Notes under the pieces: generated by a model
Told to the model about the DNA's origin: nothing
Database searches by the model: none
What the model saw: only the letters and a program-made list of their open reading frames with translations
Origin: Psococerastis gibbosa
Lineage: Eukaryota > Arthropoda > Insecta > Psocodea > Psocidae
Direction of reading: 5' to 3'
NCBI GenBank assembly: GCA_963971405.1
Contig: OZ020490.1
Location: forward strand, 25,321,464 to 25,385,463
DNA length: 64,000 nt
Shown: positions 3,233 through 56,514 of the stretch, one piece after another
Numbering within the stretch: the first letter of the stretch is position 1
How the letters are laid out: each line of letters begins with the position of its first letter
Position numbers and translations under genes: made by a program

Positions 3233-4171
3233 CATTGGCGTAAATAGGGGGGTAACACCCGTAGTAGCCCCCCCCCCCAGGATTTCAGGTGGCAAAGACG
3301 CAATGGAGGCTAAAGGCATAGTATCCACAATAATGAAAGGGAAATTAATTTTTAGTATGCATATTTTACTTGAAAAAAAGCAACATATTGACCAAGTACT
3401 TTCACAAAAACTACATTACTCAAAATGCTTAAAACCCCAATACTTCAGAGCTATTTTTTCCACATTTTTCTCCGGGAGAGACCCCCGGGCCCCCCTCAAT
3501 GGTAGGTTTCTTCGTCGTTATAATATCTCAATTGTACTGCTTGCAAACTTTGGCGTAAATAGGGGGTCCTGGGCTAAGACCCCCCCCCCCAGAAGCACCC
3601 GTAGGCCCCCCCCCCCCCAGGATTTATGGTGACAAAGACGTTATGGAGGCGAGTACAATCCACAATAACGAAAGGGAAATTAATTCTTGGTATGCATATT
3701 TAACATGAAAGACATCATGAAAAAAATTAACGTTTTGACAAAGTATTTCACAAAAATATATTACTCAAAATGCTTAAAACCCCGATATTTCAGACCTATT
3801 TTTTCAAAATTTTTCTTCGGGGGAGACCCCCCAGGCCCCACTCAGTAGTAAGTTTATTCGTCTGTAAAATCTCCACTGTACTGCTTGCAAAATGCGTAAA
3901 ACCTCCCTAATTTGGGCCTAACCATCAATTTTTTTTCTCCGGGGGAGACCCCCGGGCCCCCTTTCTCCAGGGTAGAATATTCGTATAACCTCACTAATTT
4001 GGGCTCATTTATCAATTTTTATTTCTCCAGGTGAGACCCCCGGGCTCCCCTTTGTCCAGAGTATAATATGCGTAAAACCTCACTAATTCGATTTTTTTCT
4101 CCGGGGGATCAAAGTCATGGGGTTGTAAAGCCCCCCCCCCTCCCCAGAAATTTTGTGAATTTACGCCAATG
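3233..4171. mobile_element. 939-bp hAT-like non-autonomous element with C-runs
   Basis: Terminal inverted repeats CATTGGCGTAAAT / ATTTACGCCAATG are perfect over 13 bp. They are flanked by a perfect 8-bp target duplication GGATTTTA (3,225-3,232 and 4,172-4,179). The interior is repetitive: two diverged copies of a roughly 320-bp module (from 3,238 and about 3,552, each opening with GGCGTAAATAGGGGG), then three shorter units of about 88 bp ending in GGGGGAGACCCCCGGG-like hairpins. No transposase frame. 8-bp duplications are typical of hAT elements; family assignment beyond that is inference. A relative without clear ends lies at 10,990-11,420. Confidence 0.85.
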
Positions 4172-4779
4172 GGATTTTATCCGAAACCGGTCACTATTAA
4201 AGAATTTCATTGCGTTCTTCTTCTTCTACTCACGATGCCCACTATAAACTACACAATGCGACACATTGCTTTAAGTGCTCCGAACATTAATTTTAAATTT
4301 TCAAATTTTCGCGCCAATATAACAGCCGGTGGGCAATACGCAAGGAAACTTCCGTAAGGGTGGGAGGCTCAGCAGATGTTTTCAATGGTATGATAGATCA
4401 TCATAATTTTGAAAACAATGCTGTCATCCCTTACTCACTCTCAAAACTGCCAGTTATTAATTGCTACCACAAAGAAATAGGTTTAGTAGGTATTAATAAT
4501 CAAATATGGTATTTTGTACCGTTGCAGCGGTTGTACCTATATTTGGGTCTCTCAGTTAATTCGATATAAGTATTACTTTAAATGTCATTGGCCAAAGCTT
4601 GTATAGACCCAGTGCTTCTTATCGGTAATCTTGCCTGGTAGCAAGTCTGGAAAAATTGTGCATCCAATATACTGCTAGCAGACTTGTCACAGTTGGTAAT
4701 TGTGCCAGGCGGTTATTGAGTTGCTCTCCTATAGTAGGAATACCCTAACCATTGCGAAGTAAACAAATTAATAGGACTT
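4172..4779. other. No recognisable feature
   Basis: AT-rich sequence; two short plus-strand open frames (4,169-4,357 and 4,360-4,569) lack any recognisable domain or splice context. Confidence 0.35.
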
Positions 4780-5110
4780 TGTTGGGGCCGTTCGTGCCCC
4801 AACAGTAATTTGGCTTATTCCCCCCTCCCCCTGGGTAGGGAGGGGGAGTTCTTGGGCTATAACAGGGAATGTGGGTGGCCGGACTCAGGGCCCTTGTTCC
4901 GCCCCTGAGGCGCAACCCTTGGAGGCTGGAGCCCGGTTTCTCCCTCGTACCTGCAGGCCAGTAGTCTCGGTGCTCTCTGCAGATCTGCAGGGCAGTTGCA
5001 GTATGGTACCACTTATTGACTGTACCAGTATTTGCCTAGCTCGGTCCGCGTGTAAGTTTGTCAAGCGTGTGAGTCGAGTTCACCCCCTGGATCCTCTGAG
5101 ACCAGGGTGG
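4780..5110. other. GC-rich island of unknown origin
   Basis: Conspicuously GC-rich against its AT-rich surroundings. It opens with a hairpin (GTTGGGGC..GCCCCAAC), then a CCCCCTCCCCC / GGGAGGGGGAG inverted pair, then a 93-codon plus-strand frame (4,871-5,152) with no recognisable domain. It could be the 5' region of a retrotransposon or an unrelated CpG-rich element. Confidence 0.35.
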
Positions 5111-5819
5111 TTGTTTATAGTAAATCATAAATTGTGTGTCAACCTTAAGTGATAATTTGTAAAATATACTATGGAAAAGGAAAACTAAATTGGACTTATC
5201 ATTCTTTTAATTTTCACCACATTCCCCCGAAGTTTAAAATACCGCGTGTGGCCAATACAGACTTAGTTAAGCATACCTCAACTAAGAAAACTCAAACAAA
5301 GAAAAATCTAATAAGAGAATCTCTCTATTTCTCTCTTTTCCTCGCCCAGTTTTCCCTGAACAAGGAGCATGTATTTTAATTTAATAACTTAATATTATAC
5401 TTATTTTTATTGAATACCTACTGTGAATGATCGGAACATAAGTATAAGGGATCGGAACATGATATGCGCTATTCTTGCCCTCCTCTCTCGAATGATAGAA
5501 TTTAACCAAAAACCGTTTCATGCCCCCACGGGCCCCCCCGCCCCCCCCCCCCCCACTTCGGTGATTTCAACCTTGAAAGGAGCCATGGCGTAGGTATGAA
5601 CAGTATAGGTACTAAAGAGCGGGGAGGTTCAATAGACATTACACTTGTAGACTCACTGGCCGGCATGCATCCGTTCGCACGGTATTAAGTAACTTTTTAT
5701 GTTAACTATCTCAACGGTCATAGGCGTCATACCGTCCCCCCGTGACTTTGATATAACGACTTTTAACGTATCTCATATGAAAATACACAATATCTATGTG
5801 AAGGGGTTGGTTGTAAGAC
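5111..5819. other. No recognisable gene; C-run at about 5,530
   Basis: AT-rich sequence with a run of about 14 C interrupted from further C/G-rich sequence near 5,525-5,555. No exon or repeat family identified. Confidence 0.35.
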
Positions 5820-6085
5820 GCAGTGGCGGCGCTACAGGGCCACAGGGGTGCCCGAGCCCCGAGGGGGCCTACCCCCCCCCCCTGATAGTTTCTCCTTTTG
5901 AGATATTTTACATGTTCTTATATTGCAGAACTTTAGTAATTCAAAACCGTCAGAATTAAAACTGGTAACAAGTTACTTACTTTCGTTATCCTACCTGCTC
6001 CTAATGAAATTTTTTTTGTTTTTTTCATTGGCCCCCCAGATAGAAGTCATGTCCCCATAGTCCCCCGCCTTAAAATTAAAAAAAA
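5820..6085. mobile_element. Truncated copy of the 27.5-kb hAT MITE family
   Basis: Begins with the terminal sequence CAGTGGCGGCGCTA. The interior matches, in reverse orientation, the element at 27,524-27,762 (GAGATATTTTACATG, then TTTTTTCATTGGCCCCCCAGATAG, then GTCATGTCCCC). The far terminus is replaced by an A-rich stretch, so no second end or target duplication is visible. Confidence 0.65.
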
Positions 6086-6171
6086 TAACCTATCCTTTAT
6101 TTCCATTCCAATAAAATTTGCTATTATTCTTCATTCTATTCTTATATTGTCGTTAACACTTATCCTGAGCT

Positions 6172-6338
6172 CAAGGCCGTAACAGGTTTTTTTTCAGGGG
6201 AGGGGGGGGGGTTAGAAATTTCATTGGATATCGTACATAGTGGTTTTTATTTTTCCTCTCAAAATCCGATTCTATCTCGTATCAAGCCAAGGGGGGGGGG
6301 GTTTAACCCCCATGAACCCCTCCTTGGCTACGGCCTTG
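6172..6338. mobile_element. 167-bp hAT-like MITE with G-runs
   Basis: Ends CAAGGCCGTA and TACGGCCTTG form a 10-bp inverted repeat, bracketed by a perfect 8-bp duplication CCTGAGCT (6,164-6,171 and 6,339-6,346). Two G-runs of 9 or more lie inside. A related stretch without the insertion, running from GTTAACACTTATCC into ACTTGCAAA.ACAATAG, is present at about 6,717-6,762 and serves as a paralogous empty site. Confidence 0.9.
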
Positions 6339-6346
6339 CCTGAGCT

Positions 6347-6640
6347 GGCACTTGCAAACACAATAGTTGGGACAACTCTTGTTCCTCCTCTTCGAATGCT
6401 TCTTCTATCGAAGATTGGCGATCATCATGGCAATTGTAGACACCTAGACACCACACTTCGGACTCCCCAAAAGGAAGTCAAGTATGTAGAGTATCGAATG
6501 TACTTAGTCATGATGACTGTACTAGGGAATGGTATTGCAGTGGTTTCCAGTTGCATTCTGCATCCTTATGCCGTTGACTCTTCATTGAGTTCCTCCGCCT
6601 TCGGGGCCCAACCCCCGGACAAAAGAGTGCCCTAGTAGTA
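6347..6640 (+). repeat. Dispersed repeat, copy 1 (GATTGGCGATCATCATGG family)
   Basis: The block from about 6,390 (CTTCTATCGAAGATTGGCGA) to 6,635 recurs in the opposite orientation at 8,640-8,900. Its start also occurs at about 35,265 and 51,890. The open frame through it is shared between copies but has no recognisable domain. Likely the 3' part of a retroelement. Confidence 0.55.
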
Positions 6641-7338
6641 GTTGTTTAGTTAGTGCCGGCTAGTAATCGCCCCGCCATATAGTCATATTCTTTTTCTTCT
6701 TTCTATTCATTGTATGGCTGTTAACACTTATCCAAAGCTTGAACTTGCAAATACAATAGGCCCTTAGCCTGTTTATTTACTTATTTCGGGGGAAGAGGGG
6801 CTGCAGCTTTACCTAAGTTTTTGAACGAACTCTTATCTTTTTCTAAAAAAATAAAATTCAAATTAGGGTGAGGCCATTTCATTCCGGGGAGGGGGGGGGG
6901 GGGCTGCGACTGGCGATTCTTCCTAAGAACGTTTACCAAAAATTCTCAATAACAGATACAAAATTAATAATAAGCTTCCAAGAATTAACAATAAATTAAT
7001 AAAACTTCCCTAAAATCTAAGTAGGTAATGAAAAATTCCACAGCACTTCTGACCCTTCGCATACGCCTATGTCCACTGGTCATTTCAAGTTAACCCATGC
7101 ATGACATAAGCTAAGTACAGGGGATTGTTGTCATCGTAGGGATGCGAAGCGCACCATTTGTTTTCATTTTCACATGAGTGAAGAATTTTCCCAAAGCATG
7201 AAGTCAAGGTCGCTCCCACAGACCCGGTGCTGCTTGGCTTTTAATGGTTAGGACAATAATAGTGTAATCTTTCTGAGTTTTACCAATATAACTATTGTTT
7301 TCAACTGGATGGAACTTAACAAAATTAATGAAAAGCGG
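6641..7338. other. No gene; G-run at about 6,885
   Basis: Contains the empty-site paralog of the 6,172 MITE (about 6,717-6,762), a G-run near 6,885-6,905 within a sequence resembling other G-run repeats, and otherwise unremarkable AT-rich DNA. Confidence 0.35.
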
Positions 7339-7346
7339 GTTGAAAC

Positions 7347-7493
7347 ATGCCTAGGGGGTGGTCCAAGGGGTCCGGACCCCCTCGAAATATTTTTTTTTAT
7401 GTAAACCTGTATTGTTTGAAGAATTCATTCATTAATAAATTACGTAAAAAAATGTAGACCCCCCCCCAAATTAAAACCTGGGCACGGCCTTGG
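7347..7493. mobile_element. 147-bp G-run MITE, GGGCACGGCC family
   Basis: Starts ATGCCTAGGGGGTGGTCC and ends ACCTGGGCACGGCCTTGG, between perfect 8-bp duplications GTTGAAAC (7,339-7,346 and 7,494-7,501). The interior has GGTCCGGACC followed by a run of C near the right end. Better-preserved relatives lie at 16,692-16,874 and, inverted, at 32,565-32,768. The left end here is degraded compared with theirs. Confidence 0.8.
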
Positions 7494-8900: not shown

Positions 8901-8914
8901 CTTGCCCAAACATT

Positions 8915-11941: not shown

Positions 11942-12638
11942 TAAGATATGCAACGTAGTAAATAGGCGCCCCAAAATGTAATAATTTTATTTTTTGTTTC
12001 ATTAACTCAAGTCATTAATATAATTTCGCTCATTGAAGTTGTAAAAGATCACTTCGTCCATCATGTAATCGGGTATTTTTCTATTTTTTTTTCTTTCGAT
12101 TTTTCTATTTAGCGCGCAAATTTAGTTCCCAGTGGTTTTTATGAAAGAAATATGGTACTTAAAATTTAATATTTCCTATTCAATGGTGCATGAAGTAGTC
12201 TTCTACAACTTACATGAGCCAAATCTTTAATAAATTGCTTTGTTAATTAATAATTAAGAGGACATGTACGTAGAAAATGAGCACTCCAATTTTTTTTTTT
12301 TTTTACTTTTTATTTTTTTATTTAATTAACAAAGCAAGTCATTGAAGATTTGGCTCATGGGAGTTGTAGAGGACTACTTCATGCATCATATAATAGGAAA
12401 ATATTACAATTTTGGTACTTTAGTTCTTTGATAAATACCAGACTGGACTAAGATTTCTCGTATTCTGGAAGTTTTGGAAGAACTAAAAAACCGTAAAGTA
12501 AAATTACCCGATTATATTATGCACAAAGTAGTCTTCTACAACTTAGATTAGCCAAATTTTTAATAACTTGCTGAGTTAAATAAATAAAAAATGAAAAGTA
12601 TTTAATTTTTGGGTGCCAATTTCCTACGTAGCATATCC
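11942..12638. mobile_element. Fold-back element, about 0.7 kb (family FB)
   Basis: The left half and the reverse complement of the right half match almost throughout. Both run from GATATGC.ACGTAG outward, through TTAACTCA.CAAGT and a TAATCGGGTA block, into an inner arm GCATGAAGTAGTC.TCTACAACT..CATGAGCCAAATCTT. The centre (about 12,280-12,310) is a T-rich loop. Arms are about 340 bp with mismatches. Half or partial copies occur at 12,650-12,710, 33,735-34,440, 38,180-38,400 and 40,690-41,015. Transcription would give a long imperfect hairpin. Confidence 0.8.
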
Positions 12639-12710
12639 TCTTAATTAAAAAGAAAAATTCAATGAAAACCACAAATTTTGGGGGGCTAATTTTCTACGTA
12701 GCATGCTTTG

Positions 12711-13149
12711 GTATTGATATCCAAATTTGTACTTCAGGCAGCAGCTTACCACTATCACGCACTATCTATTGTACGTATCAAAAATATTGCGTGAATTTAG
12801 ATATGGCGAAACATCGACAATGACCGAGAATTGCTCACGTCGGAGTACTGTTTGTAGGTACCTATCAACTTTAAATTTTCCCACAGTTGTCTAGAATACC
12901 TTGACACCGTGTTCGTACAGGTCCGAAATTGCCTGAACTAACCAGGCTTTGTGTGAAACATTAGGTAATATATTGTAATGGTAATTAGGTTGCGATATAT
13001 GCTCATCATATTGGTAGCAGGAAGCGACTTATCAATATAATTTCATTAAGAACAAAGCAATATAAGTCTTTTAATGAATGTATTGAATATGTGTGAATAC
13101 AAAATCTGCGATTTGAAGAAAGACTTTACCAATGACTGAAAGGTAGAGA
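12711..13149. other. No recognisable feature
   Basis: Sequence between the fold-back element and family H; no exon or repeat recognised. Confidence 0.3.
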
Positions 13150-14015
13150 TAAAAACCGGTCCGAGTTCACTCAAACATGCTTTCCAATTTATCAAAATTA
13201 TTCGATAGAGAAAATTAGTAATTTTATGGCAAATATTTTTCCTATGGTTAAATTTCCTATATCTCGGGGGGGGGGGGGGGGGGGTTGTCCACCTGACGTC
13301 ACTGGAAGTGAGGTAAATTCTCGATAGGTCAAACAAACACATTAATTACCACACAGCAATAATGGCAGGGCATGCAATGCATTTGAGCGCGAATTTTCTA
13401 TCATTTTTTTCAAAAAATAATTTTTTGGGCAAAACCAAATATTTTTTTTGGGAAAGCAACCTATCCGGTTTCGTTACTCAATTTAACACCTAAAACATGC
13501 TTGAAGGTAGAAATCATCGATAGAAAGGTTTCGCATTTTTTAGTCATTTTTTTCATTAAAATTTAGTTATTTTTATTTTTTTACCCCCAGAAGCAAACTA
13601 TCAAGGGGCAAGCGACCCCCCGCATTTTGTCAACATTAATAACGACTACAATCTACGAGAATTTAAAAGAAATCGTTGGAGCCGTTTTTGAGAAAAAAAT
13701 TTTTTAGACGTTTTTTTGGAGTTTTTTGAAAATAAAACCCCCCCAAATTGAGTTAGCCCAAAAAAAAAAAAATGGTCCCGAGGTATGATTTTTGTGAACC
13801 TACATGCCAAATTTCACTCAAATCCACTGAGTAGTTTGCCCGGAAATCGACGAACAGACAGACAGACCGACAGACAGAAATTTTGTAAAAACCACTTTTT
13901 TGGGTTCCTGGGACCTCAAAACGTGTAAATCCGTTGAAATTTCGGAATCAAAAATTTCGACCATCACAAAGCTTTCCTTATACTACGTATAAATTGGAAA
14001 GCAAAAATAGAACGG
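13150..14015 (-). mobile_element. Family H TIR element, near-complete copy
   Basis: Inverted ends GCTTTCCAATTTAT (13,179) and ATAAATTGGAAAGC (to 14,002), with AACCGGTCCGAG just outside the left one. The interior includes an 18-nt G-run (about 13,266), a (CTGT)n-like microsatellite written here as ACAGACAGACAGACCGACAG, and the signature GGTTCCTGGGACCTCAAAACG. The copy at 39,735-40,695 is the same element in the opposite orientation. No transposase; probably a non-autonomous DNA transposon. Confidence 0.75.
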
Positions 14016-16691: not shown

Positions 16692-16874
16692 CAGGGCCAT
16701 GTCCAAGGGGGTGGTCCATGGGGTCCGGACCCCCCCCCCCCCCGAAATAAATGTTTGTATGTAAACCTGAATGGTTTGAAGAATTTATCCATCAATTCAG
16801 TAATAAATTACGTTAAAAAATGGTTGGACCCCCCCGCCCCCCCCCCCCGAAATCAAAACCTGGGCACGGCCTTG
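16692..16874. mobile_element. G-run MITE, GGGCACGGCC family
   Basis: Starts CAGGGCCATGTCCAAGGGGG and ends CCTGGGCACGGCCTTG, with internal GGTCCGGACC and two long C-runs (14 and 9-10). Flanks TATGTGA/TATGAAG are only partly similar, so the target duplication is uncertain. Confidence 0.65.
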
Positions 16875-17597: not shown

Positions 17598-18245
17598 GCG
17601 TTCTGTAATCATTTGTACACGATAGGTGTCGGATAGGTGCTAAGTGGGCAATAAAACACTTCACCAATCACACCATCGTAAAGTGTTGTGCCCGGCACGC
17701 TCTTAAGACGAGATCTCTTCTTTAAGCGTTGAAGAGGCTGCAAAGGACCTTTGCGCGGCGGTCCTCAGGCTTCCTTTGACATGCCGAGGCTTCCTCATTG
17801 AATTCATATAGCTCTTTTATGTTACTCTGACAGGTTAAAGTCGATAACGGTTGGCGAGAATGGTTTTTAACATGTTAGCATGTGGGTAAATATCGGGGGT
17901 TTTTATCAGGTTTTATGGTTTAATCTAGGTTAGTTTTTGATGGTTCTTCTGGATGAACCTCTCCAAACACCAAACTGAAGAAGCACGATTAACCGGTAAG
18001 GTTTAAGTCTGAGGACTGACAGAGGGGCCTCTTTCTTGGCCAGTGCTCTATTTTGGTGGATGTTGTGCCCAGCGTCATGTTTATCGGACGCTCTTCGAGA
18101 GCAGAACAAGTCAATTGCTTGTGCGCAACTGTCCTTCCTGGATGCGATAATAGTACGAATTTCAGTCTATATAAATAACGGGTTCAAACCCCCCCCCCCC
18201 CCCGAAATGAAATGGCTTGACACTAGGTAGAATCGGATTTTGAGA
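17598..18245. other. Possible downstream part of an LTR; otherwise unknown
   Basis: Moderately GC-rich at 17,620-17,800 (GTGTTGTGCCCGGCACG). No domain or repeat match inside the window; a 17-nt C-run lies at about 18,188. Confidence 0.25.
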
Positions 18246-18710
18246 GGTGGCATTAAAAGGTGGGCAAACTTAGTCACTTAAAGCCGAAATGATCCACAAT
18301 TTAACCCTCTCCTTATTTGTCCGGGCATGGAAACCTTGCACTGAAACCACGGTGGCATTAAATGGAGGGCAGACTTAGTCGCTTACAGCCGGAATGATCC
18401 ACAATTTAACCCCCTCGTTATTTGTCCGGGCATGGAAACCTTGCACTGAAACCACGGTGGGATTAAATGGTGGGCAAACGTATTCGCTTACAGCCGGAAT
18501 GATCCACAATTTAACCCTCCTCATTTGTCCGAGCATGGAAACCTTGCACTGAAACCACGGTGGCATTAAATGGAGGGCAGACTTAGTCGCTTACAGCCGA
18601 AGTGATCCACAATTTAACATTCTCCTCATTTGTCCGGGCATGTAAACCTTGTACGGTAACCACTCCACCATTGTGCCATTAAATGGGGGGGCGGACTAAG
18701 TCGCATAAAG
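18246..18710. repeat. 105-bp tandem repeat, about 4.4 copies
   Basis: Units start near 18,246, 18,351, 18,456 and 18,559, with a decayed fifth at about 18,672. Each has GGTGG.ATTAAA, then AGCCG.AATGATCCACAATTTAAC, then TGTCCGGGCATG.AAACCTTG. The 105-bp period equals 35 codons, so a minus-strand frame stays open over two units; I regard that as a by-product. Confidence 0.9.
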
Positions 18711-25449: not shown

Positions 25450-25638
25450 CAGTGGCGTAACTAATTTTTGGGGGTCCTTACGCAAGGCAGAGCAGTGCCC
25501 TCCTCCCTCTATAATTTTTTGGAAATCACGTACATCACTTAACTTTCTGGTGCTGAATTTGGTTTTGTTTTTAAACTTTCATTTTCCCTTTTGGCCCTTA
25601 AGCCTTGCGTAACTTGCTACCCTTCTGTTACGCCACTG
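25450..25638. mobile_element. 189-bp hAT-like MITE
   Basis: Ends CAGTGGCGTAAC and GTTACGCCACTG form a perfect 12-bp inverted repeat, flanked by perfect 8-bp duplications CTGGATAC (25,442-25,449 and 25,639-25,646). A subterminal TTACGCAAGGC / GCCTTGCGTAA pair extends the symmetry. CAGNGGCG ends with 8-bp duplications are characteristic of hAT elements. Confidence 0.95.
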
Positions 25639-26076: not shown

Positions 26077-26261
26077 CAATGGCGGAGTCACGGGGGGGGG
26101 GGGGGGTCAGGGGGCCATGACCCCCCTAAATGAGTAAATTCATAAGATACCTAGTAAAAAAAATTGAATAAAACTCAACTTTTCAACAAAAAATTACCTT
26201 TAAAACTTACAAGAAAACTTGTGACCCCTCCCCCCTAAATTTTCGGCTGGATCTGCCCTTG
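26077..26261. mobile_element. 185-bp G-run hAT-like MITE
   Basis: Starts CAATGGCGGAGTCACGGGGG and ends GGCTGGATCTGCCCTTG, with perfect 8-bp duplications TAATATGA (26,069-26,076 and 26,262-26,269). A G-run of 14 follows the left end and CCCCTCCCCCC lies near the right end. No coding capacity. Confidence 0.9.
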
Positions 26262-26664: not shown

Positions 26665-26870
26665 CAGCAGGGACGGTTTCAGAAAAAGTTTTCGGGGGGG
26701 GGGGGCGATGGCCTGAAAAATATCGCGATTCTTTTACTTGAGTAATATATTTTTTTAATTTACTTCAAAAGTCCATTCTATCTAGTTTAAAGCTATTTCT
26801 CTGGAGGGTGGGGGGGGGGGGGGCGGCCGCCCCCACGCCCCCCCAAAAGGATCCGTCCATGAACTGAAGG
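26665..26870. mobile_element. Probable G-run MITE
   Basis: Starts CAGGGACGGTTTCAG and ends CCCCAAAAGGATCCGTCCATG. The termini are partly inverted (GGACGG / CCGTCC) and G/C-runs flank both ends. Target duplication is not clear (CCTGAAG / ACTGAAG offset by a few bases). Confidence 0.5.
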
Positions 26871-27064: not shown

Positions 27065-27310
27065 GAATTTGGAGAATCTAGCTTTCTTCTTCAAGAAGTG
27101 AAGCCGTGGAAGAAAATTGGACCAGCGTATCAACGAATGATCTTCCTAGTAACGCAGGAGATAAACGTATTGCTTCACTTTTGATACTATTCCTGTCACT
27201 ACAGCGACAGCAGAACGTACGTTCTCGTTACTTTAAAAGGCTCTTCAGCCTTTTTGAGGAGTAAAATGGGGGAACTATTTATTATGGCCAACTATTGAAT
27301 AGAAATCGAA
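27065..27310 (+). pseudogene. hAT transposase C-terminal (dimerisation) fossil
   Basis: One frame encodes DTIPVTTATAERTFSLL, matching the hAT dimerisation core (L.LPVSTA..ERSFS.L). It is followed, after frameshifts, by KRLFSLF and then FLRSKMGE, corresponding to the RLKT.LR..M.. segment. Upstream, EVKPWKKIG may be part of the same domain in another frame. At least two frameshifts and several stops make it dead. It sits about 215 bp from a hAT MITE (27,524) and 0.8-1.6 kb from two more. Confidence 0.7.
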
Positions 27311-27523: not shown

Positions 27524-27762
27524 CAGTGGCGGCGCTAGAAATTTTAAGGCTGGGGGGGGGCATGGAGGGGCATGACTTCTATCTGGGGGGGCCAATGAAA
27601 AAACAAAACATTTTTCATTGGGAGTAGGTATACTGTTCACTAATTCTGCAATTTAACAGCATGTAAAATATCTCAAAAGTGGGGGGGGGCCCCGGAGGGG
27701 CTGGAGAAACTGTTGGGGGGGGGGGCCAGGCCCCCTCGGGTACCCCCGTAGCGCCGCCACTG
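27524..27762. mobile_element. 239-bp G-run hAT MITE beside the coding exon
   Basis: Ends CAGTGGCGGCGCTA and TAGCGCCGCCACTG are a 14-bp perfect inverted repeat. A perfect 8-bp duplication TTAGAGTA flanks it (27,516-27,523 and 27,763-27,770). Several G-runs of 7-11 lie inside, so its plus strand could form G-quadruplexes. Its nearer duplication ends 41 nt from the splice donor of the coding exon. A truncated inverted relative is at 5,820-6,085. Confidence 0.95.
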
Positions 27763-28462: not shown

Positions 28463-28866
28463 CTAGACTGTCCTTCTCATAGATTTTAATAATAATACTA
28501 GATAGCGAACCCCCATGCTCTCTGTAGGGAGTGTTGTGAAGCCATAAGTGCTATAAGTGGATAAAAAGAACGGAAAGAACGCAAAGTACCTGTTCTTAAA
28601 TGGGTACTTCTCGACGAAATAAATTTTATCTTGATTTAATATCAGTTAATATTGTCTTTTCTGTAACTATTGATCAAAATCCACTGAAAATAAACGGAAA
28701 GATTGAACTTTTGAAAGTAATTTTCACAGAAAATGTTAGGAAATCTCATAAGAACTCAAGGTAAATGAATGTAAACGTTTTCTATCCACTTGCAATGGCG
28801 GATGGCTTCAAAACATGCAGGGGAGTTCGCTATCTAGTATTATCATTAAAATCTATGGTCCTTCTA
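28463..28866. mobile_element. About 400-bp inverted-repeat element
   Basis: Inverted ends of about 60 bp run through CATAGATTTTAAT.ATAATACTAGATAGCGAAC on the left and its complement on the right, then GAAGCCAT / ATGGCTTC further in. It follows the previous MITE by about 20 bp. Confidence 0.8.
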
Positions 28867-29118: not shown

Positions 29119-29407
29119 AAGCTGGCCAGGGCTCCAAACGGACTCGCGCCAAGCCAAATAGCGCGTCCTGTTCCATTTGGCGTTACCGCCATCTAGAGGG
29201 GTCATCACGACTACGCTGAACCAGTCGTTCCAAATCTTTCAAATTGTACAGTGTGACGATATGGAAGAGGTACTTTTTGAAAGATTTCGAGCGACTGCTT
29301 CAGCGCATTCGTGATGACCCCTCTAAATGGCGCTGACGCCAAATGGAACAGGACGCGCCATTTGGCTTGGCGCGAGTCCGTTTGGAGCCCTCGTGAATGG
29401 CCAGCTT
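29119..29407. mobile_element. 289-bp MITE flanked by TA (Tc1/mariner-like)
   Basis: Termini AAGCTGGCC / GGCCAGCTT are bordered by TA on both sides (29,117-29,118 and 29,408-29,409). Long arms (about 125 bp) pair through GGGCTCCAAACGGACTCGCG and GCGCGTCCTGTTCCATTTGG. Unusually GC-rich compared with its surroundings. A TA duplication suggests mobilisation by a Tc1/mariner transposase; none is present. Confidence 0.85.
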
Positions 29408-30100: not shown

Positions 30101-30249
30101 TCAGGCCCGTACCCAGGATTAAATTTAAGGGGGGGGGGGCAAGAACAAACATTTTTATAAATGATCGGTACATCCGTAGTGATTTTAGTAGTTTTAGCTA
30201 AAACTCTTACATTATTATTTTTCTAAAATAAAATTGGGTACGGGCCTGA
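30101..30249. mobile_element. 149-bp G-run MITE, GGCCCGTACCC family
   Basis: Ends TCAGGCCCGTACCCA and TGGGTACGGGCCTGA are inverted, flanked by 7-bp duplications GTAGCCT (30,094-30,100 and 30,250-30,256). One G-run of 10. The 56,339-56,514 element is the same family. Confidence 0.85.
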
Positions 30250-32564: not shown

Positions 32565-32768
32565 CAAGGCCCAGCCCAGGTTTTGATTTGAGGGGGGGGG
32601 GTTCAATTTTTTTTTTAAAGTAATTTATTAATGAAAGTCCATTCTATCCAGTGTTCAAACTCAAATAAATTTATTCCAATTCTAACTTCAATACAGGTGT
32701 ACATAAAAAAAATCATGGGGGGGGTCCGGACCCCTTGGACCACCCCCCTGGGCAGTGGGCACGGCCAT
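32565..32768. mobile_element. G-run MITE, GGGCACGGCC family, inverted
   Basis: Reverse orientation of 16,692-16,874: starts CAAGGCCCAGCCCAGG, ends TGGGCACGGCCATG, with GGTCCGGACC inside. Flanks share GGTACTT, with six extra bases on the left. Confidence 0.65.
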
Positions 32769-32774
32769 GGGTAC

Positions 32775-35424: not shown

Positions 35425-35935
35425 TTAAAAATTCACAACCGGTTTCGGCTCACGCCATCGTCAAGTGCGATTGAAAACAGATAAAACAAAAGGTATGCAA
35501 GCTAAAACAAAATAAAACTCATTGTCAAGATAACACTCGACAGCATCGCATAAAGTAATCAATTTAAATTAAACAATTAAACATTAACCAATGGAAGCGC
35601 CAACAAGGGGGAACTACTTAAAGAGGTTATGTCATTAAGTAACGATTTGTTTTTAACCATAGCTTCCCTAATCTCAATGGTTTCTAAATTATCAAGAAGT
35701 TTCCCCTTGTTGGCTACATGTAAGATCTTAAAATTATCGAAATCACAGGCATGGTTGTGGGTGTTTATATGTTGGGCAAAGGCGGACTGAGTGTCGGGCT
35801 TTCCTACCCCCCCCCCCCCCCGTCTATGCTCCGCTATTCTTTCTTCAAACCCTCTCCCAGTTTGTCCATTATATAAGCTACCACAATCATTACAGTCTAG
35901 TTGATAAACCCCTGATTTTCTCCCGAAAAACTAAG
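35425..35935 (-). pseudogene. Penelope-like element 3' part: GIY-YIG endonuclease
   Basis: The minus frame encodes GVYQLDCNDCGSLYNGQTGR then GFEERIAEHRR, a G-run, and after it SAFAQHINTHNH, FDNFKILHVANKGKLLDNLE and TIEIREAM. This is the C-terminal GIY-YIG nuclease of Penelope-like retroelements: GVY stands for the first motif, and the second is LYNG instead of LYIG, so one conserved position is altered. A 15-nt C/G homopolymer sits between the motif pair and the rest. The end carries GATGGCGTGAGCCGAAACCGG, typical of the 3' end. Reverse transcriptase is missing upstream. Confidence 0.85.
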
Positions 35936-39734: not shown

Positions 39735-40695
39735 AAATGTTCCTTTTTGCTTTCAAATTTATACGTAGTAGAAGGAATGCTTTGTGATGGTCGAAATTCT
39801 CGATTCCGAGATTTCAACGGATTTACACGTTTTGGGGTCCCAGGAACCAAAAAAAGTGGTTTTTACGAAATGTCTGTTTGTCGCTCTGTCTGTATGTCTG
39901 TCTGTTCATCAATTTCTGGGCAAACTACTCAGCTGATTTTGATGAAATTTTGAATATAGGCTTGCAAAAATCATACATACCTCGAGACCATTTTTATTTT
40001 ATTTTGGGCTAACTCAATTTGGGGGGGGGGGGGGGTTTATTCTCAAAAAAATTCCCAAAAAAGTCTAAAAAAATTGTTTCTCAAAAACGGCTCCAACGAT
40101 TTCTTTTGAATTCACATATATTGTAGTCGTTATTAATGATAACAAAATGTGGATGGTCGCTTGCCCCTTGATAGTTTGCTTCTGGGGGTAAAAAAATAAA
40201 ATTAACTCAATTATCATGAAAAATGACTAAAAAAATTTTTTTATGCGGAACCTTTCTATCGATGATTTCTACCTTCAGGTATGTTTTAGGTGTTCAATAG
40301 GGTAACAAAAACGGAAAGGTTGCATTTCCAAAAAGATATTTGCTTCGGTGCAAAAAATTAATTTTAAATTATATAATTATATTATATATAATTAAATAAT
40401 TAATTAATTTTTGAGAAATTACGGAAAATTCACGCTCCAGTACAATACGTGCCATGTGTCATTGTTACTACCGTTACAATGTATTGGTATGTTCGTTCCA
40501 GAATATGCTATTAAGATTTAAGGGGTTTTTAATATATTGAGTGGACCCCCCCCCCCCCTTCTCGAGGGATCTGAAATTTAACCATAGGGAAATTATTTCC
40601 TATGAAATTACACATGTCTACCTAGGTATATACCCTAGGTATATCTGCTAATTTATAAATTGGAAAGCATGTTCGAGTAAACTCGGACCGGTTCT
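39735..40695 (+). mobile_element. Family H TIR element, complete copy
   Basis: Inverted ends GCTTTCAAATTTAT (39,749) and ATAAATTGGAAAGC (to 40,668). In order: GATGGTCGAAATTCTCGATT, GGGGTCCCAGGAACC, a (CTGT)n-like block, a 15-nt G-run, GATAGTTTGCTTCTGGGGG, a C-run, and AACTCGGACCGG. Opposite orientation to 13,150-14,015. Confidence 0.75.
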
Positions 40696-41015
40696 TATTT
40701 AATTAAAAAAGCAAGTCATTAAAGATTTGGCTCATGGAAGTTGTAGAAGACTACTTCATGCATGATATAGGAGAAAATATTAAATTTTTTATACCTTAGT
40801 TCTTCTATAAATACCAGAACAGACAGGACAAGACTAAAATTTCGCGTATTCTGGGATTTTTGGAAGAACTACAAAACCGAAAAGTAAAAATGCCTGATTA
40901 TATGATGCACGAAGTAGTGTTCTACAACTTACATGAGCCAAAGTTTTAATAACTTGCCGAGTTAATTAAAAAAAAAATGAAAAGTATTTTCTACGTGACA
41001 TATCCTCTTAAGTAT
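40690..41015. mobile_element. Half of a fold-back FB element
   Basis: Matches the right half of the 12-kb FB element: GATTTGGCTCATG.AAGTTGTAG, then TTTTGGAAGAACTACAAAACCG, then TTCTACGT.ACATATCCTCTTAA. Directly abuts family H. Confidence 0.75.
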
Positions 41016-41911: not shown

Positions 41912-42095
41912 CAAGGCCATATCCAGGATTTTTTTTCGGGGGGGGGGGAAGGGGGTTTCAGAAATTTCATTGGATATTACATAGTAATTTTTATTTTTCC
42001 TCTCAAAATCCGATTCTATCTAGTGTTAAGCCATTTCATTTCGGGGGGGGGGGGGGTGTTTGACCCCCCATGAACCCCCCTTGGCTACGGCCTTG
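41912..42095. mobile_element. 184-bp G-run MITE, CAAGGCC family
   Basis: Ends CAAGGCCATATCCAGG and TGGCTACGGCCTTG, same family as 6,172-6,338. Flanks GTTAGGGA / GTTAGGAG match in 6 of 8 positions. Confidence 0.8.
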
Positions 42096-43199
42096 GTTAG
42101 GAGCTATTTGATATAGATAATATTCAGATTATCCGTGATGTCTTCAAAAAAGTATTTTCACTTCAAAAAGCAACTTATTCTGTTTCGTTTAAATCCGATT
42201 AGCACCTTGAAATTAAAAAGCATCGATAAAAAGGTTCCACAGAAATATTTATTTATTTTGGTAATTTTTCCCAAGAAAATGGAGTCTTTTAAAATTTATT
42301 TTGCCTCCAGAGGCAAACTAGCATTGGGAATGGTCGGTTTTGTTAATTTTCATGAAGGTGAATTTTTAATAAAATCAATATACATTATTTTTGCCGTTTT
42401 TGGAGGCTAAAACCCCCAAAATTATAGCCCAAAATATAGAAAAGCCTGCTCCTCGTCTATCCTGAGCATGCTTGCTACCATGGGCGCTGGTTCCATAAGG
42501 CTTGGTATGGCCCGGGCCATACCAATATTCGGATTGGTATGGCTGAGCCATACCAATAATTTTAGGAATAACCAACACCTCATATTTTAGTGTATTTTGA
42601 TAAATAAATTCACTATTTTACATTGCACTTACTTAGAACAAATCTTATAATTTATTATGAAAATTAAAAATTAAAGGAAATGAAATCGTCAAATCGATTA
42701 TTTAGATCGAAATTGGCGGGAGCCAACAGATTTATTGAAATGATAGCTACAGAGTGATGCCATATATTTATTGGGGGAGGGGAGGGGGGGCAAACTGACT
42801 CCTTCCCCCCGAAAAAAGGATTTCCTCGGGCAATGTTGGGCCATACCAATAATTTTCACAACTCGGCGCCCATGCTTGCTACCGCACCTTCCCTAATAAC
42901 TCCTCTATGAGCAATATTAGTTCTTACAGATACAACTACTTTACTCCAACACACGCTCCCGTTTCTGTTCCAGTCAACTATCTTTAAAAATCTATGAAAA
43001 ACCCTTAACCCATTATACCAAAAAATCGTGCAATAGGCAAAGGCAAACTGATGATGTAGGCGGTACCTGGGCAACTCGTCGTCTAGCGCGCTTTCTAGCA
43101 GCTTGCAGAACGACACTAGTGCCCACCACACCAACCCCATTCAAAACGATAGTACTGCACTATACATAAACATACAACGTGTAAGCCCCAAAGGGCGTA
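42096..43199. other. No gene; scraps of repeats
   Basis: Contains GCCATACCAATAATTTT repeated at about 42,548 and 42,841, bracketing a segment with G- and C-runs, possibly another MITE. The 94-codon minus frame at 42,856-43,140 has no recognisable domain. Confidence 0.35.
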
Positions 43200-47439: not shown

Positions 47440-48175
47440 TTTGTTTTGTCATATTTTAACTGTGCAATATTAGAAAATGACTAACGAGAGATTTACTGAA
47501 CGAATTATGCGCAAATGTCTTAGTTTTTGTCAATATGATCTGTAAACTGCTGTATAACGTATATCGGAATAGTCCACTTGGTTTATACTTACTGAACGAA
47601 TAATGCGCAAATGTATTGACTTTTGTCATATTTTAATTTTTAACTGAGCAATATTAGAAAATGACTAACGAGAGGTTTACTGAATGAATTATGCGCAAAT
47701 GTCTTGGTTTTTGTCAATATTATCTGTACACTGCTGTATATAACGTATATCGGAATAGTCCAGTTGGTTTATACTTACTGAACGAATTATGCGCAAATAT
47801 ATTGACTTTTGTCATATTTTAATTTTTAACTGAGCAATATTACAAAATGGCTAACGAGAGGTTTACTGAATGAATTATGCGCAAATGTCTTGGTTTTTGT
47901 CAATATTATCTGTACACTGCTGTATATAACGTATATCGGAATAGTCCAGTTGGTTTATACTTACTGAACGAATTATGCGCAAATGTATTGACTTTTGTCA
48001 TATTTTAATTTTTAACTGAGCAATATTACAAAATGGCTAACGAGAGGTTTACTGAACGAATTGTGCGCAAATGTCTTGGTTTTTGTCAATATTATCTGTA
48101 CACTGCTGTATATAGCGTATATCGGAATAGTCCAATTGGTTTATACTTACTGAACGAATTATGCGCAAATGTAAA
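47440..48175. repeat. 186-bp satellite-like tandem array with dimeric structure
   Basis: The landmark CTAACGAGAG recurs at 47,481, 47,665, 47,851 and 48,037 (periods 184, 186, 186). Within each unit TACTGAACGAATTATGCGCAA occurs twice, about 95 bp apart, so the unit is a diverged dimer. The array breaks at 48,172 where SINE-1 inserted and resumes briefly at 48,405-48,475. A further partial unit lies at 48,913-48,955. Confidence 0.95.
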
Positions 48176-51879: not shown

Positions 51880-52290
51880 TTCTTCTTTAAGTGCCTCTTC
51901 TATGGAAGATTGGCGATTATCACGGCAATTTGGGCCTTGGAGATTGCTGATTTGCTGCTCCAGTGCAAAATCAGGAAGAGAGGCGCATCCATAGAAATGA
52001 TGAGCTCTCTATATATATACACCATATACCTAGAGCCTACGATAGTAGCCGAAATCAACAGAGCCCGCATCAAGTTGCTAGGGCACGTGGAACGAATGCC
52101 AGACAATAGGGCAACAAGGACAGCCCTACATAAGGTGCCCCAAGGGAGAAGACGAGTGGGACGACCACGGATGCGATGGCTGGACGACGTCGAGGTGGAT
52201 CTGGCTACACCTGGCGTCGATGACTGGCGAAGGAGTGCGCAGGATCGCGCAGTCTGGTACGATGTGGCAGATCAGGCCAAGGAGTAAGTA
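51880..52290 (+). pseudogene. LINE-A 3' end, longest non-amplified copy
   Basis: A 142-codon frame (51,859-52,287) includes LLQCKIRKRG, EPTIVAEINRARIKLLGHVE, GRRRVGRPRMRWLDDVEVDL and GVDDWRRSAQDRAVWYD. The upstream CTTCTATGGAAGATTGGCGA shows that the 6.4-kb dispersed repeat can lie directly 5' of LINE-A. No RT domain. Confidence 0.8.
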
Positions 52291-53085
52291 ATTAAGACTG
52301 CTGATCTGAAAAGGGAAGTCGTGCTTTTGCCAAACCACTGCCTCATGTTTTTCAACCACGTTGATCTGACCTTCTTCTGCCGGGAGACCTCAATTTTTCT
52401 ATCTTCCCATGGATTGATGAATCAGTAGAATCCGGGAAGATAGGCCGTGGTCGTGCTGAAAGAGTACTTCCAAACTTCCAAACACATCCCCCTGCCCACA
52501 CAGTTGCTGCTGAGAAAATTTAGGGGGGGGGGGGGAGGTCACAAGTTATATGTAAGTGGAAAATGTAATTTGTTTGTTGAAAATTCACATGTCAAATGCA
52601 CTGATTCTGTTCACCTTGTGTCAACGGCCTTTCCTCCATACCACAAGATCCCAAATAGAGGAATAGGCAATATGGAGGATCCACCACCAGTCCGCCGGTC
52701 GTTTAGCATGTTTTTATGCCTGGACTGATTTGTGGAAGCTTATAAACGAATCTCAAAGTTCAAGTTCTAGGGCAAACATATCTTTATTGATTTTTTAACC
52801 CACAATACCAATTATGTAAATTATTCCTGAATGAAACATGGAAGCACGTGTTTAGTAGGCGGTTATCTTGAGCACCTGTACACCCGGCAATTGCCTCACA
52901 GATGGGGAGAGAAGTTCGTCTTTAACGGTCGCGCCACCTGTTGCCGTCGAAGAAGGTTCGCAACGGATTTAAGGTATGTTATCCAAACATTTCCGCCTTC
53001 TAACGTCTTTTCCATTCTTTCTAGTTCTTCCTCTTTTATTTAACGAGTAATAGTAATTTCCATTACAAGGTTCTCACGTTCAATA
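52291..53085. other. No assigned gene
   Basis: 52,395-52,490 resembles the arm of the 57-kb palindrome (CAGTAGAATCCGGG, GGCCGTGGTCG). A plus frame at 52,831-53,043 (…LPHRWGEKFVFNGRATCC…) has a possible donor AAG/GTATGT at 52,975 but no acceptor; origin unknown. Confidence 0.35.
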
Positions 53086-53378
53086 CAATACAATACAATA
53101 TATATTTCAGTTAAACTATACAAGTAAAGTATAAGATAAAATCGTCAGTATATCGTCAAAATCAGGTAGTTCTGTCATTGTGATTGTGCTAGTGCCTCAG
53201 TGACAGTGTAGAAAGCTTTGTTTAAGAGATGGTTTCTAAGCAATTTAGGGAAGTTAGAAGCATTTCTCGCCACTCTCAGTTCAATCGGGAGTTTTCTAAG
53301 GTAGGCGAAACCTTGGAGTATAGGATCCAGTCGCTCACATTTGGCTGTGCGTGGCGCTGGCCTTACAAGGTCAGTGGC
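53086..53378 (-). pseudogene. CR1/Jockey-like LINE C-terminus and 3' tail
   Basis: The minus frame (stop at 53,175) reads RPAPRTAKCERLDPILQGFA, then YLRKLPIELRVARNASNFPK, then LLRNHLLNKAFYTVTEAL. The W/LP.E.R.....FK..L..HLL pattern is the end of CR1-type ORF2. It is followed by a short 3' UTR and a (TATTG)n tail (53,083-53,102), the 3' signature of such elements. Its upstream side is cut where hAT-like ends (CAGTGGCGG) begin. Confidence 0.75.
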
Positions 53379-53612
53379 GGTTCCAAAAATTTCTCAAGGG
53401 TGAGGCAGTGGCGGATCCACAGGGTGGTCACGGGGGCCATGACCTTGTTTCTTCTGATAAGGAATTCCAAAACCTATAGGGGTGTTCACTGCCAATGAGA
53501 GATTCAAAACCATTTTGTTCTCACCTTAATTTTAAGAATGATTTCTCGAGAGAGAGGGAGAAGTATAGACTAATGTGACCCCCTCCTAAACGTTCCACTG
53601 GATCCGGCCTTG
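53372..53612. mobile_element. Probable G-run hAT-like element(s)
   Basis: Two starts, CAGTGGCGGTTCC (53,372) and CAGTGGCGGATCCACAGGG (about 53,407), share this window's hAT terminal motif. The right side has CCACTGGATCCGGCCTTG followed by a 13-nt G-run. The ends do not give a clear duplication, so boundaries are provisional. Confidence 0.45.
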
Positions 53613-53943
53613 GGGGGGGGGGGGATCTTTTGCTTTCACTACTGAAATGCCCACCCGTTAGTCTTGCAAATATACGAATGAACGCAATTTTGTGGGGGTG
53701 ACTAAACCAGTTTGTAGAAAATATTTTGCATATTGTTAATCGTCGCAACTTGAAGCATGAAGAGTAATTTCTTCCTATAAACTTGGAGGGACTACTATCT
53801 ACTGTATTACATACCTGTACTGTGTCATAATATATGAATAATAATATATTAATCAGTTTACTTATACAATACTAATTATCTTAATATTGTAAATAATAAT
53901 TTTTTTTCAGGTTCCGGCAAGAAATAGTGACGGTCTTACATAC

Positions 53944-54044
53944 CTGGAACGGAAATGGTTTAGGAAACGGACTTTCTTGAATCACGGTGGCGACATTTCA
54001 CTAACACCCGCGCACTGAAACCACACTCCACGAGGTTTGTGAAC
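53944..54044 (-). other. Putative non-coding (5' UTR?) exon, minus strand
   Basis: Acceptor TTTATTTTTTCAG/GTTCAC and donor TTCCAG/GTATGTAAG bracket 101 nt. All three frames contain stops, so it is not coding; it has one tiny ATG frame of four codons. It lies upstream, in minus-strand sense, of the coding exon at 27.8 kb, so it could be a 5' UTR exon of that gene, or part of a lncRNA. No transcript support is available. Confidence 0.45.
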
Positions 54045-54659
54045 CTGAAAAAATAAATACCAAAGTTATGATTAGATTACAACTGCATTAGCTTATAAGC
54101 ATAGAATTACTATTTCATATTGTTGAACGTAGACCTGCAGTCTCAGCGCGAACAGATTAACGAAAGAAGGCTTAATTAAGTCAAGGAGAGGGGGGGGGGG
54201 TCCAGGGTGCAGCGTACACTAATTAGAATGAAGTTTTAAACATATTCAGGTTACCTCCCTCCGGGGACGTCAGATTGGTTCAATAATTGTGGCCAATCTG
54301 TGTAAGGTACACATGATGATTTGATTGATTGATTAATTGATGCACCAAAATGCTCAAAAATTTCTTCTGTTTCTCCCAATAATTTAGACACCCCCATCCA
54401 TTTTGATAAAAATTTAGAAAAACGGGAAAAGCCGTTCTCATCGGCGTAAGCCTTTAATTTAGTGGGACCTCAGTGTCCTTTGCGGAGATTGAAAGGAGGC
54501 TCAGTGGTCTCCCCCAGGGGAAATCTTTTGAAAAAAAATATATGCCTTAAATGCTAGGGTTTTACGCACTTTGATAGCAATACCTTTGATTTTTCATAAT
54601 ATATATTTTTTTTTTTTACACTCATAAGGCTCCCCCGCCCCCGATTGTTTCTTAATTTG
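54045..54659. other. No recognisable feature
   Basis: G-run at 54,190; no gene or repeat family identified. Confidence 0.3.
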
Positions 54660-55216
54660 TTGATTACCATTCACCACGCCATTCTCCTCTTCGGGTCCTT
54701 CCCCCAAAACTATCGTCAAACCTCCCCAACAGAGTCTTCTTGCCTTTCTCCCACTGCAAACTGCAGTCTAAGGCAACACAATGCAGCTGGCGCAGACACA
54801 GCCTCCTCCTCACCCATGCGTGGACGCGGTCCCATGTGACGTAGAGTTCCAGATCAACAGGCCGCATCGACATGCACCGTGTGAGGCGGCGCGTCTTCGT
54901 TTTCAGCCCGGCTGATTCTGTGCGGGCAATGGTCCGTGTAGGTGCTACTAAACGGGAAGCAGGTGATGCAATGTCAAGGTCACCACGTGCGAGGGTGGCC
55001 AATGCAGCGACCGACGTGGCGAATCTTTGGGAGGCTGTAGAGGGTGGACAAAGCACTACTAGAAAGGTAGTTGGAAGGTGTAAAGAACTTGCACTGTGGA
55101 GGGTGGCCAATGCAGCGACCGACATGGCGAATCTTTGGGAGGCTGTAGGGGGTGGACAATGCACTACTAGGAAGGTAGTTGGAAGATGGAAGGAACTTGC
55201 ACTGTATGCTTGTTAA
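54660..55216. other. CpG-rich block with overlapping frames and in-frame duplication
   Basis: GC- and CpG-rich compared with its surroundings. The plus strand has a 114-codon frame (54,872-55,216) ending in a 36-codon module (ANAATD.ANLWEAV.GGQ, TTRKVVGR.KELAL) duplicated in tandem: 108-bp units at 54,991 and 55,099. The minus strand has a 166-codon frame through the same sequence. I recognise neither protein; codon-like divergence has not been measured. Could be a transposable element or a small gene. Confidence 0.4.
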
Positions 55217-55266
55217 AAAGGGTGGAGGTACTAACGGGTGGATCCATTATTTACGTCTGCGGAGGG

Positions 55267-55274
55267 TATAAAAG
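55267..55274 (+). promoter_or_regulatory. TATA box candidate
   Basis: GGGTATAAAAGGG, a consensus-quality TATA motif about 50 bp after the CpG-rich frame. Any start site would be near 55,297-55,300, just before an ATT-repeat microsatellite (55,320-55,350). No downstream gene seen, so its use is uncertain. Confidence 0.3.
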
Positions 55275-55374
55275 GGAACTGGGCTAAATAGGAATTCGCC
55301 CTTCGTCCTTCACCTATTTATTATTATTATTATTATTTATTATTATTATTCTCCGTATTATTATTGTTTATTGT

Positions 55375-55530
55375 TTTCCTATTTATACGCAGTATTAGGA
55401 TGGTCGAAATTTTCGATTCCGAGGTTTCAGCGGATTTACACGTTTTGAGGTCCCAGCAGTAACCCAAAGCGGTTTTTAAGAAATGTCTGTCTGTCGGTCT
55501 GTTTGTCGATTTGTGGGGAAACAAAATGCA
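55375..55530 (+). repeat. Family H fragment
   Basis: GGATGGTCGAAATTTTCGATT, AGCGGATTTACACGTTTTGA and GAAATGTCTGTCTGTCGGTC match family H. Confidence 0.7.
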
Positions 55531-56338
55531 CCGTACGGCCCTGAGGTGGGCGTCAGATTACGTCTTAACTCTTCATGTAGCTATTTATTGTAGTACCTGA
55601 ATAAAGATACTAGGTACTCACTACTGGCTATCAGATTTAATGCAGTACATGAGCCGCATTCCGCAAGCAATTTCATTTAGACGTTGTACGGGTATACTGT
55701 ATACCTAAAACCGCAGCGGACACTATAGTACGTCTACTGGTTGCCATTCCCAGAAACTTGGACGCTTTGTTCCGGCCATGTCGTGAAGTCATGCCCGGTT
55801 TTAAGGATTTACAACCATTGTACCGGACTATTGTGACGCTTGTGTACCAATTCCTCCTCAGTACTGCAATTACGTTTTGATTTCGGGCTCAGCCTGTCAG
55901 ATAATGAAGATCCTGCACACCCATTCTCACATCTTCTCAACACTTTTACAATATTCGTGCCTCATGGCTTCCAATATGCACAAGCTGCCGTCGGCCGTCG
56001 CGTTGCGTCCTAAACTTTGCTATTATTCCGCGTACCTCCTACACGACTCGCTTCTGCCCCATTGTTGTCCCTAGCTCCTACGAACAACTCTTTACCCGGT
56101 AATTGATTTTTTATGGCTTCTGGACAGGGGTTTTTGTTGTCTGCGTTTGGATCCAAGCCCGTCGCTTATATTGCTGGGCATACAATTCTGTGAATTGTAG
56201 AAACGGCTAATAAATTGCTAATGTAGTGTAATTGCTGGCTTATAACTGGGAATGATGCTTGTTAGAGTTCTATATTGGGAGGATGGATAATTCTCTCCCG
56301 CCAATAGGGACGTATTTAAGGTATCTGCCACCTCTAGG
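55531..56338. other. No assigned feature
   Basis: A single-copy-looking block at 55,860-56,080, moderately GC-rich, with a 65-codon plus frame lacking a known domain. Could be regulatory. Confidence 0.3.
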
Positions 56339-56514
56339 CAGGTCCGCACCCAGGATTTTTTTTTTGCGGGGGGGGGGGGGGCATGACCATTTTTTTTTTA
56401 TAAATGATATATCCGTAGTAATTCATCTTTGAGACTGTCAATACAATGACCATCTGACCAAATTTTGGGGGGGAAGGGCATGGCCGCCTTGCCCCCCCCT
56501 TGGGTACGGGCCTG
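56339..56514. mobile_element. 176-bp G-run MITE, GGCCCGTACCC family
   Basis: Ends CAGGTCCGCACCCAGGATT and CTTGGGTACGGGCCTG, flanked by perfect 8-bp duplications CCTCTAGG (56,331-56,338 and 56,515-56,522). Contains G-runs of 13 and 8 and a C-run of 8. Same family as 30,101-30,249. Confidence 0.95.

Follow-up and report, generated by a model that had tools for sequence, protein, structure and literature searches.

The window analysed here, a stretch of 64,000 nucleotides from the psocid insect Psococerastis gibbosa (assembly GCA_963971405.1, contig OZ020490.1, positions 25,321,464 to 25,385,463), contains non-autonomous hAT transposons, many of them miniature inverted-repeat transposable elements (MITEs), and fragments of such transposons, in most of which long runs of G or C lie near the ends. 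Most of these elements probably form one lineage whose mobilising enzymes are DUF4371-type, zinc-finger-MYM-1-like hAT transposases; such transposases are plentiful and intact in the genome. The elements have paired hAT-like ends and 8-bp target site duplications (TSDs), families A, B, C and K (lettered as in Table 1) are homologous, and family G has a full-size relative with G-rich ends; in copies fetched from elsewhere in the genome the presence of a run is stable and its length is unstable. In the explanation preferred here, the ancestral ends would have held short G-boxes next to an A/T stretch, one set back from its tip by about 27 nt and the other by about 15 nt, and these boxes would form part of a putative transposase binding region; boxes that reached about 8 G would then have grown through replication slippage until they settled at an equilibrium length near 13-15, the host treating poly-G tracts in this way within and outside MITEs alike. 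Taken as a whole, this reading (one hAT lineage, inherited G-boxes in the binding region, lengthening by slippage) is favoured with slight rather than strong confidence, a grading which also covers the binding-site step.

The window has a G+C content of 39% and contains 45 G/C runs of at least 9, yet just two runs of exactly 8. Elements were sought as paired hAT-like ends (CANNGNC) with an 8-bp duplication, a search which finds six exact-duplication elements (those starting at 3233, 6172, 25450, 26077, 27524 and 42479) compared to none in 20 dinucleotide shuffles; with one mismatch tolerated in the duplication there are 6 elements against a shuffle mean of 0.05, and with two tolerated there are 9 against 0.4. 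A first-pass annotation of this DNA had reported perfect duplications at 3,233, 6,172, 26,077 and 27,524, all of which were recovered in the paired-end search, with none in the shuffles, and at 56,339, where CCTCTAGG does flank both sides. The duplication that it placed at 7,347 is present, one base off, the flanks favouring GGTTGAAA with CA...TG ends over GTTGAAAC. At 30,101, which had been credited with 7 bp, the right flank is AGTAGCCT and the left flank is AGTAGCCT plus one T, so that a full 8-bp duplication may exist at 30102, and at 41,912 the match is 6/8 as described. The MITE at 25,450 has hAT-like ends and lacks a long run, as had been noted for it, and its duplication is exact. The elements starting at 16692, 26668, 32565, 42479 and 53406 are additional to the earlier list.

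The 8-bp duplication of the hAT superfamily is present in MITEs A, C, D, F, G and H (in their window copies, and elsewhere for A, C and G), as are short terminal inverted repeats beginning with CA. The small size (167-239 bp), lack of coding sequence and high copy number of MITEs are combined in A, C and G, the families whose copy number was assessed; the family H element is 939 bp long. The proposed hAT-like nature of the set is borne out by the duplications, by the CA..TG ends and by the full-size DUF4371-hAT relative of family G, and most of the elements carry G/C runs, I (25450) and J (42479-42874) being among those that lack a long run.

Nine full-size hAT places in the genome were inspected. 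A search with the hAT dimerisation domain, in which 150 of 913 candidates were scored, returned many equal-scoring open frames of 836, 735 and 826 aa, and a DUF4371 search (150 of 476 candidates scored) added frames of 768 and 732 aa; the dozens of equal-scoring open frames in the DUF4371 hAT families of 836, 732 and 768 aa (for example L049, L098 and L099) suggest very recent activity. Place L100, whose 682-aa frame contains DUF4371, has a TSD (CCCGCGCT) and G-rich ends, both of which align to family G (E 7e-8 and 1e-5, with runs compressed and a three-element target), and family G thus has, by TSD, both ends and DUF4371, a full-size hAT relative with matching ends; a search of the longest frame of L100 did not find a hAT dimerisation domain. 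L072 (850 aa), which combines DUF4371 with the hAT dimerisation domain, has the TSD CGCTTGAC, tips CATAGGCGTAAATT and G8 and G7 boxes. Its 14-nt tips resemble those of family H, and the best-scoring named relatives of its protein are from aphids, several of them named zinc finger MYM-type protein 1-like. L101 consists of two frames split by one stop, with both domains and the TSD GTACATAC, and its end AGGATTTTATTTC-G12 resembles a subterminal stretch of A and C. The 826-aa hAT, for which 10 of 12 listed places were fetched, has 13-bp ends CAGGCCCGGCCCG and a duplication that is perfect in 8/10 and off by one base in the other two; it carries one G-run, which ranges from 11 to 18 across ten copies whose ends hardly differ in other respects. 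No locus with a relative of the L072 or L100 protein was confirmed by searching viral_contigs, and none with a relative of the L072 protein by searching genome_contigs. Within the window, a possible decayed hAT transposase end at 27165-27310 was suspected from the peptide TTATAERTFS; it remains a weak lead, because tblastn of the longest frames of the nine local hATs against the window gave nothing at E 0.01.

Copies of families A, C and G elsewhere in the genome were sampled from 2364, 2053 and 1547 first-look candidates, of which 40 for each family were scored and the 28, 10 and 10 best-ranked were fetched. The duplications are perfect in 18 of the A copies (window copy included), with one mismatch in 6 and more in 4; in family C, 7 are perfect, 2 have one mismatch and 1 has three; and in family G, 5 are perfect, 4 have one mismatch and 1 has six. 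A G-run of at least 9 is present in 48/48 of these copies, again with the window copy included. The longest run varies from 6 to 19 at the left end and from 9 to 20 at the right end of family A, which outside the runs has a mean divergence of about 4% (fetched copies plus the 6172 copy), and the runs of family C measure 11-21 and 9-14. A second sample consists of 200 kb from nine chromosome-sized contigs of the 409-Mb genome, the window's own contig included, in which a blind duplication search found six elements. Five of these belong to families A, B or C, and the sixth (L034 6371-7388), with ends CAGTGCCGGG, is of a different kind. Run length differs between copies, both in A, C and G and in the ten near-identical copies of the 826-aa hAT; run presence is constant within each family among the fetched copies, but not among the five A/B/C elements of the blind sample, one of which lacks a run of at least 9.

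The lengths of G/C runs are bimodal in both the window and the 200-kb sample, dipping at 8 and peaking again at about 11-16, and this second mode is absent from A/T runs in both. The pattern also appears inside family G, across ten copies: site 2 has 7 G in 9/10 copies and 8 in one, site 3 has 6-8 or 12 G (a plain listing reads one copy as 10), and site 4 has 10-14 G except in one copy with 5. The C-runs in family A copies remain at 5-7. In Caenorhabditis elegans with impaired mismatch repair, G/C runs are described as showing a net gain below 9 and a net loss above 9, and indels as commoner in G/C than in A/T runs (PMC8727991). Because the bimodal lengths and this pattern of gain and loss fit slippage, the long run lengths need no selection, which may be needed for the box and its position; the runs probably keep changing length through copying slippage.

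The position of the box was evaluated from both tips of 17 elements (11 from the window and 6 others), using the first G-run of at least 4 and 0-based positions. The later of the two first runs starts 25-29 nt from its tip in 12/17 elements, and in 11 of these the run at the other tip starts at 14-18; I, J, the 735-aa hAT, the 826-aa hAT and the CAGTGCCGGG element depart from the pattern, and M shows its first part alone. One B tip had been entered three bases short, and its corrected position of 17 is within the range. When the order of homopolymer blocks is shuffled in 2000 sets, the first count has a mean of 2.5 and a maximum of 9, and the second a mean of 0.86 and a maximum of 7. Since the bins were set on the window, the 200-kb sample is the fairer test: there, the motif CANNG(G/C)C occurs 25-29 nt upstream of G-runs of at least 5 on 11 occasions, six of them at exactly 26 nt, compared to 2.75 expected per 5-nt bin.

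Several observations weigh against the preferred explanation. The 25-29 and 14-18 bins were chosen after inspection of the window, the 14-18 bin of the sample, with 4 cases against 2.75 expected, is not clearly raised, and part of the sample's 25-29 nt peak comes from families A to C; because the tips of A, B, C, D and L101 are alike, the 11 spacing cases are also not independent. The run of the 826-aa hAT lies about 50 nt from the right tip, the 735-aa hAT differs in its ends and carries no run, and no run of at least 6 was seen at the fetched 836-, 732-, 768- and 558-aa places, where not all ends were located. The alignment of H with L072 is weak (E 0.08), as are those of L101 with A (0.004) and C (0.014), B, D and F matching it no better, and a mobiliser of A, B, C, D or F was not found. 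D is barely above the null when runs are compressed (29 against A and 32 against C, with a null of 26 for each). Because the fetched copies are those that best matched queries with runs, copies that lack one are under-represented, and in the blind sample 4/5 of the A/B/C elements have a run of at least 9, the one at L040 9153-9300 being without. Finally, assembly homopolymer errors could account for part of the length differences.

The strongest alternative, to which substantial but less than even weight is given, is that a functionless stretch of G in some ancestral hAT ends was lengthened by slippage and multiplied by neutral hitch-hiking as the elements were copied, an account which differs from the preferred one in the binding-site step alone. 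It draws support from the bimodality of poly-G across the genome, which extends to unclustered DNA and to a repeat that is not hAT-like; from family A, in which run lengths are uncorrelated between the two ends (rho -0.09) and with divergence (rho 0.23 and -0.15); and from the several hATs in the genome that have no such run. What it does not readily accommodate is the near-constant distance of the first run from the tip in A, F, G, H and L despite different intervening sequence, together with the 25-29 nt peak of the sample, partly contributed though this is by families A to C. Binding by the transposase is a candidate function of the G-box.

The first-pass annotation had instead proposed that separate MITE families acquired their G-runs convergently and independently, which now appears improbable. 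A repeat search places seven left ends in one family, the CAAGGCC, CAGGCCCG and CAGGGACGG ends being alike, with a T-stretch and a G-run. The CAAGGCC, GGGCACGGCC and CAGGGACGG elements have terminal or internal sequence in common, which the CAGGCCCG elements probably have in common with them too. When G/C runs are cut to four before the families are scored against a null, the alignment of A with B inside the element reaches 52 compared to a null maximum of 24, that of B with C reaches 42 compared to 26, and the run-poor piece K at 1369 scores 39, 36 and 32 against B, C and A compared to a null of 20. Clustering the contexts of 91 runs (45 from the window and 46 from the sample) puts the A, B and C runs in one cluster of 20. 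Convergence is rejected for A, B, C and K, which align to each other outside the runs, and lacks support in most families, G-rich ends being present already in the full-size relative of G; it may still apply to F and H. In its favour, the inner sequences of F, G and H differ, and compressing the runs leaves the alignment of D with A and C close to background; with the runs left in as part of the score, the best match to A copies has E 3e-10 for C and 1.5e-7 for D, and D probably belongs with A, B, C and K, to judge by its left end only. Pattern scans of viral_contigs and genome_contigs for the shared left end gave 0 matches. Sequencing is known to handle long homopolymers poorly, and the run lengths might have been inflated or made variable by sequencing or assembly errors, but this is the least probable account, as the shorter runs of these copies show little variation (the C-runs of A, and site 2 of G), A/T runs have no second mode and run presence is tied to family and position.

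The claim that the MITEs explain most of the long runs is true of the window, where 27/45 runs of at least 9 lie in hAT-like sequence (22 in listed elements and 5 in fragments) at a density of 5.9 per kb inside hAT-like elements compared to 0.30 per kb outside. It holds just narrowly, because four of the 27 are doubtful: two in possible element L, which has no duplication, and two in the fragments at 6891 and 54190, which score 37 and 59 where the highest of 54 background windows scores 59. It is not true of the 200-kb sample, in which 13/46 runs cluster with hAT-like families (9 with A/B/C and 4 with H), 8/46 with a repeat, X, that is not hAT-like, and 25/46 with neither. Runs are three times as dense in the window (0.70 per kb) as in the sample (0.23 per kb), and the window is a run-rich, MITE-rich spot in a genome that seems to expand poly-G tracts generally. 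Repeat X is itself abundant, with many matches in the sample; in the window it occupies 12100-14010 (-) and 39740-40990 (+), lying at 13266, 40021 and 40546, and it has G-runs of its own at recurring places, which measure 12-19 where they were clustered.

MITEs of hAT type are a known kind of element, and hATs with similar G-run ends are present in Repbase. No report of such a hAT G-box was found in the literature, in a coverage without most subscription papers and Repbase. The Pegasus-like silkworm MITEs BmMITE-13 to -16 are described as having an 8-bp duplication of any sequence, ends (CAAGGGCGGATCCAG, CAGTGGCGGATTA, CAGTGGCGTACCTA, CAGTGGCGGATTT) which can be counted as a likeness, and families similar in their ends only that are thought to use a common transposase, whereas G-runs are unmentioned in that description, from which the likeness is drawn (PMC2997013). 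The Tip group of hAT (BuT2, Tip100) likewise has a hAT dimerisation domain with DUF4371 (in BuT2), an 8-bp TSD and short ends; G-runs are again unmentioned in the account of it (PMC3942097). For a possible grouping of the transposases here with Tip100 and BuT2, the shared DUF4371 domain is the sole indication. Buster2_NA1_RP of Rhodnius is a non-autonomous bug hAT with a stretch of eight G in its terminus, CAGGGGGGGGCCAACCT, but its run is in the tip itself, its bat relatives have CAGGGGTGGCC and it is Buster-type (PMC4298943). The hAT Herves has a short subterminal motif at both ends, and its ends are bound unequally by the transposase; that motif, CG/AATTCAT, was demonstrated in binding assays, whereas the one here is G-rich and known from sequence alone (PMC3143072).

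The coordinates of the elements are collected in Table 1; the family M element perhaps sits inside another hAT end, at about 53373. The window also contains a 380-bp element at 28478-28857, unlike the hAT set, with nearly perfect inverted ends of about 40 bp and flanks GTCCTTCT; two long palindromes with about 20 nt between their arms, at 56849-57117 (124-nt arms, 98% complementary) and 29128-29391 (122-nt arms, 91% complementary); an open frame at 35577-35930 (-), crossed by a C15 run at 35807, whose match to GIY-YIG is weak (E 0.0012) and falls below the cut-off; and a tandem repeat with a period of about 186 bp at 47454-48173.

Table 1. hAT-like elements and fragments in the window (TSD, target site duplication).
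Feature	Position	Strand	Details
Family K, left end of A/B/C relative	1369..1480	+	interrupted run GGGAGGG; right end not found
Possible element L	1847..2111	+	G14 and C18; ends hAT-like; TSD absent; perhaps two pieces
Family H element, 939 bp	3233..4171	-	TSD GGATTTTA; ends CATTGGCGTAAAT; four C-runs of 10-13 on + (G on -); internal repeats
Family G element, truncated	5822..6077	-	C11
Family A MITE	6172..6338	+	TSD CCTGAGCT; G10 and G11
Family A possible fragment	6840..6910	+	G13; score 37, within background
Family C MITE	7346..7492	-	TSD GGTTGAAA; run of 9
Family C MITE, 183 bp	16692..16874	-	runs of 12 and 14; clear TSD not seen at this copy
Family A fragment	18160..18252	-	C15; score 92
Family I MITE	25450..25638	+	TSD CTGGATAC; no long run
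Family F MITE	26077..26261	-	TSD TAATATGA; right end G6AG4 box at nt 27, left end G15 at nt 16
Family B element	26668..26861	+	ends CAGGGACGG/CATGGACGG; G12 and G14; TSD 7/8 (ACCTGAAG / AACTGAAG) past 3 extra bases
Family G MITE, 239 bp	27524..27762	+	TSD TTAGAGTA; four G sites; full-size relative L100
Family D MITE	30102..30248	+	G11; TSD AGTAGCCT, extra T at left
Family C MITE, degraded	32565..32769	+	G10 and G8
Family A MITE, 184 bp	41912..42095	+	TSD 6/8; G11 from nt 27, and G14
Family J MITE	42479..42874	+	TSD CTTGCTAC; longest G-run 7
Family F-related fragment	52510..52590	-	G13; score 73
Family M element	53406..53612	+	ends CAGTGGCGGATCC / CAAGGCCGGATCC; TSD 6/8; right flank is a G13 run
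Possible family K-related fragment	54150..54260	-	G11; score 59, equal to highest background window
Family D MITE	56339..56514	+	TSD CCTCTAGG; G14 from nt 30

What is new in these elements is a set of ends with G-boxes that turn into variable poly-G loci, probably in one transposase group. A more specific proposal, put forward tentatively and considered doubtful as it stands, is that the DUF4371 hAT lineage uses G-tracts about 27 and about 15 nt from its unequal tips, roughly a helical turn apart, in a putative recognition site, possibly one that forms G-quadruplexes, and that these tracts seed self-lengthening poly-G loci, probably thousands of them. If the preferred explanation is true, a transposon end motif would double as the seed of a highly mutable homopolymer, and the starting state of very many poly-G loci would be known, so that the threshold of poly-G slippage and its equilibrium length would be measurable by comparing copies of one site; a little-studied group of hAT transposases would also gain a concrete recognition element open to testing.

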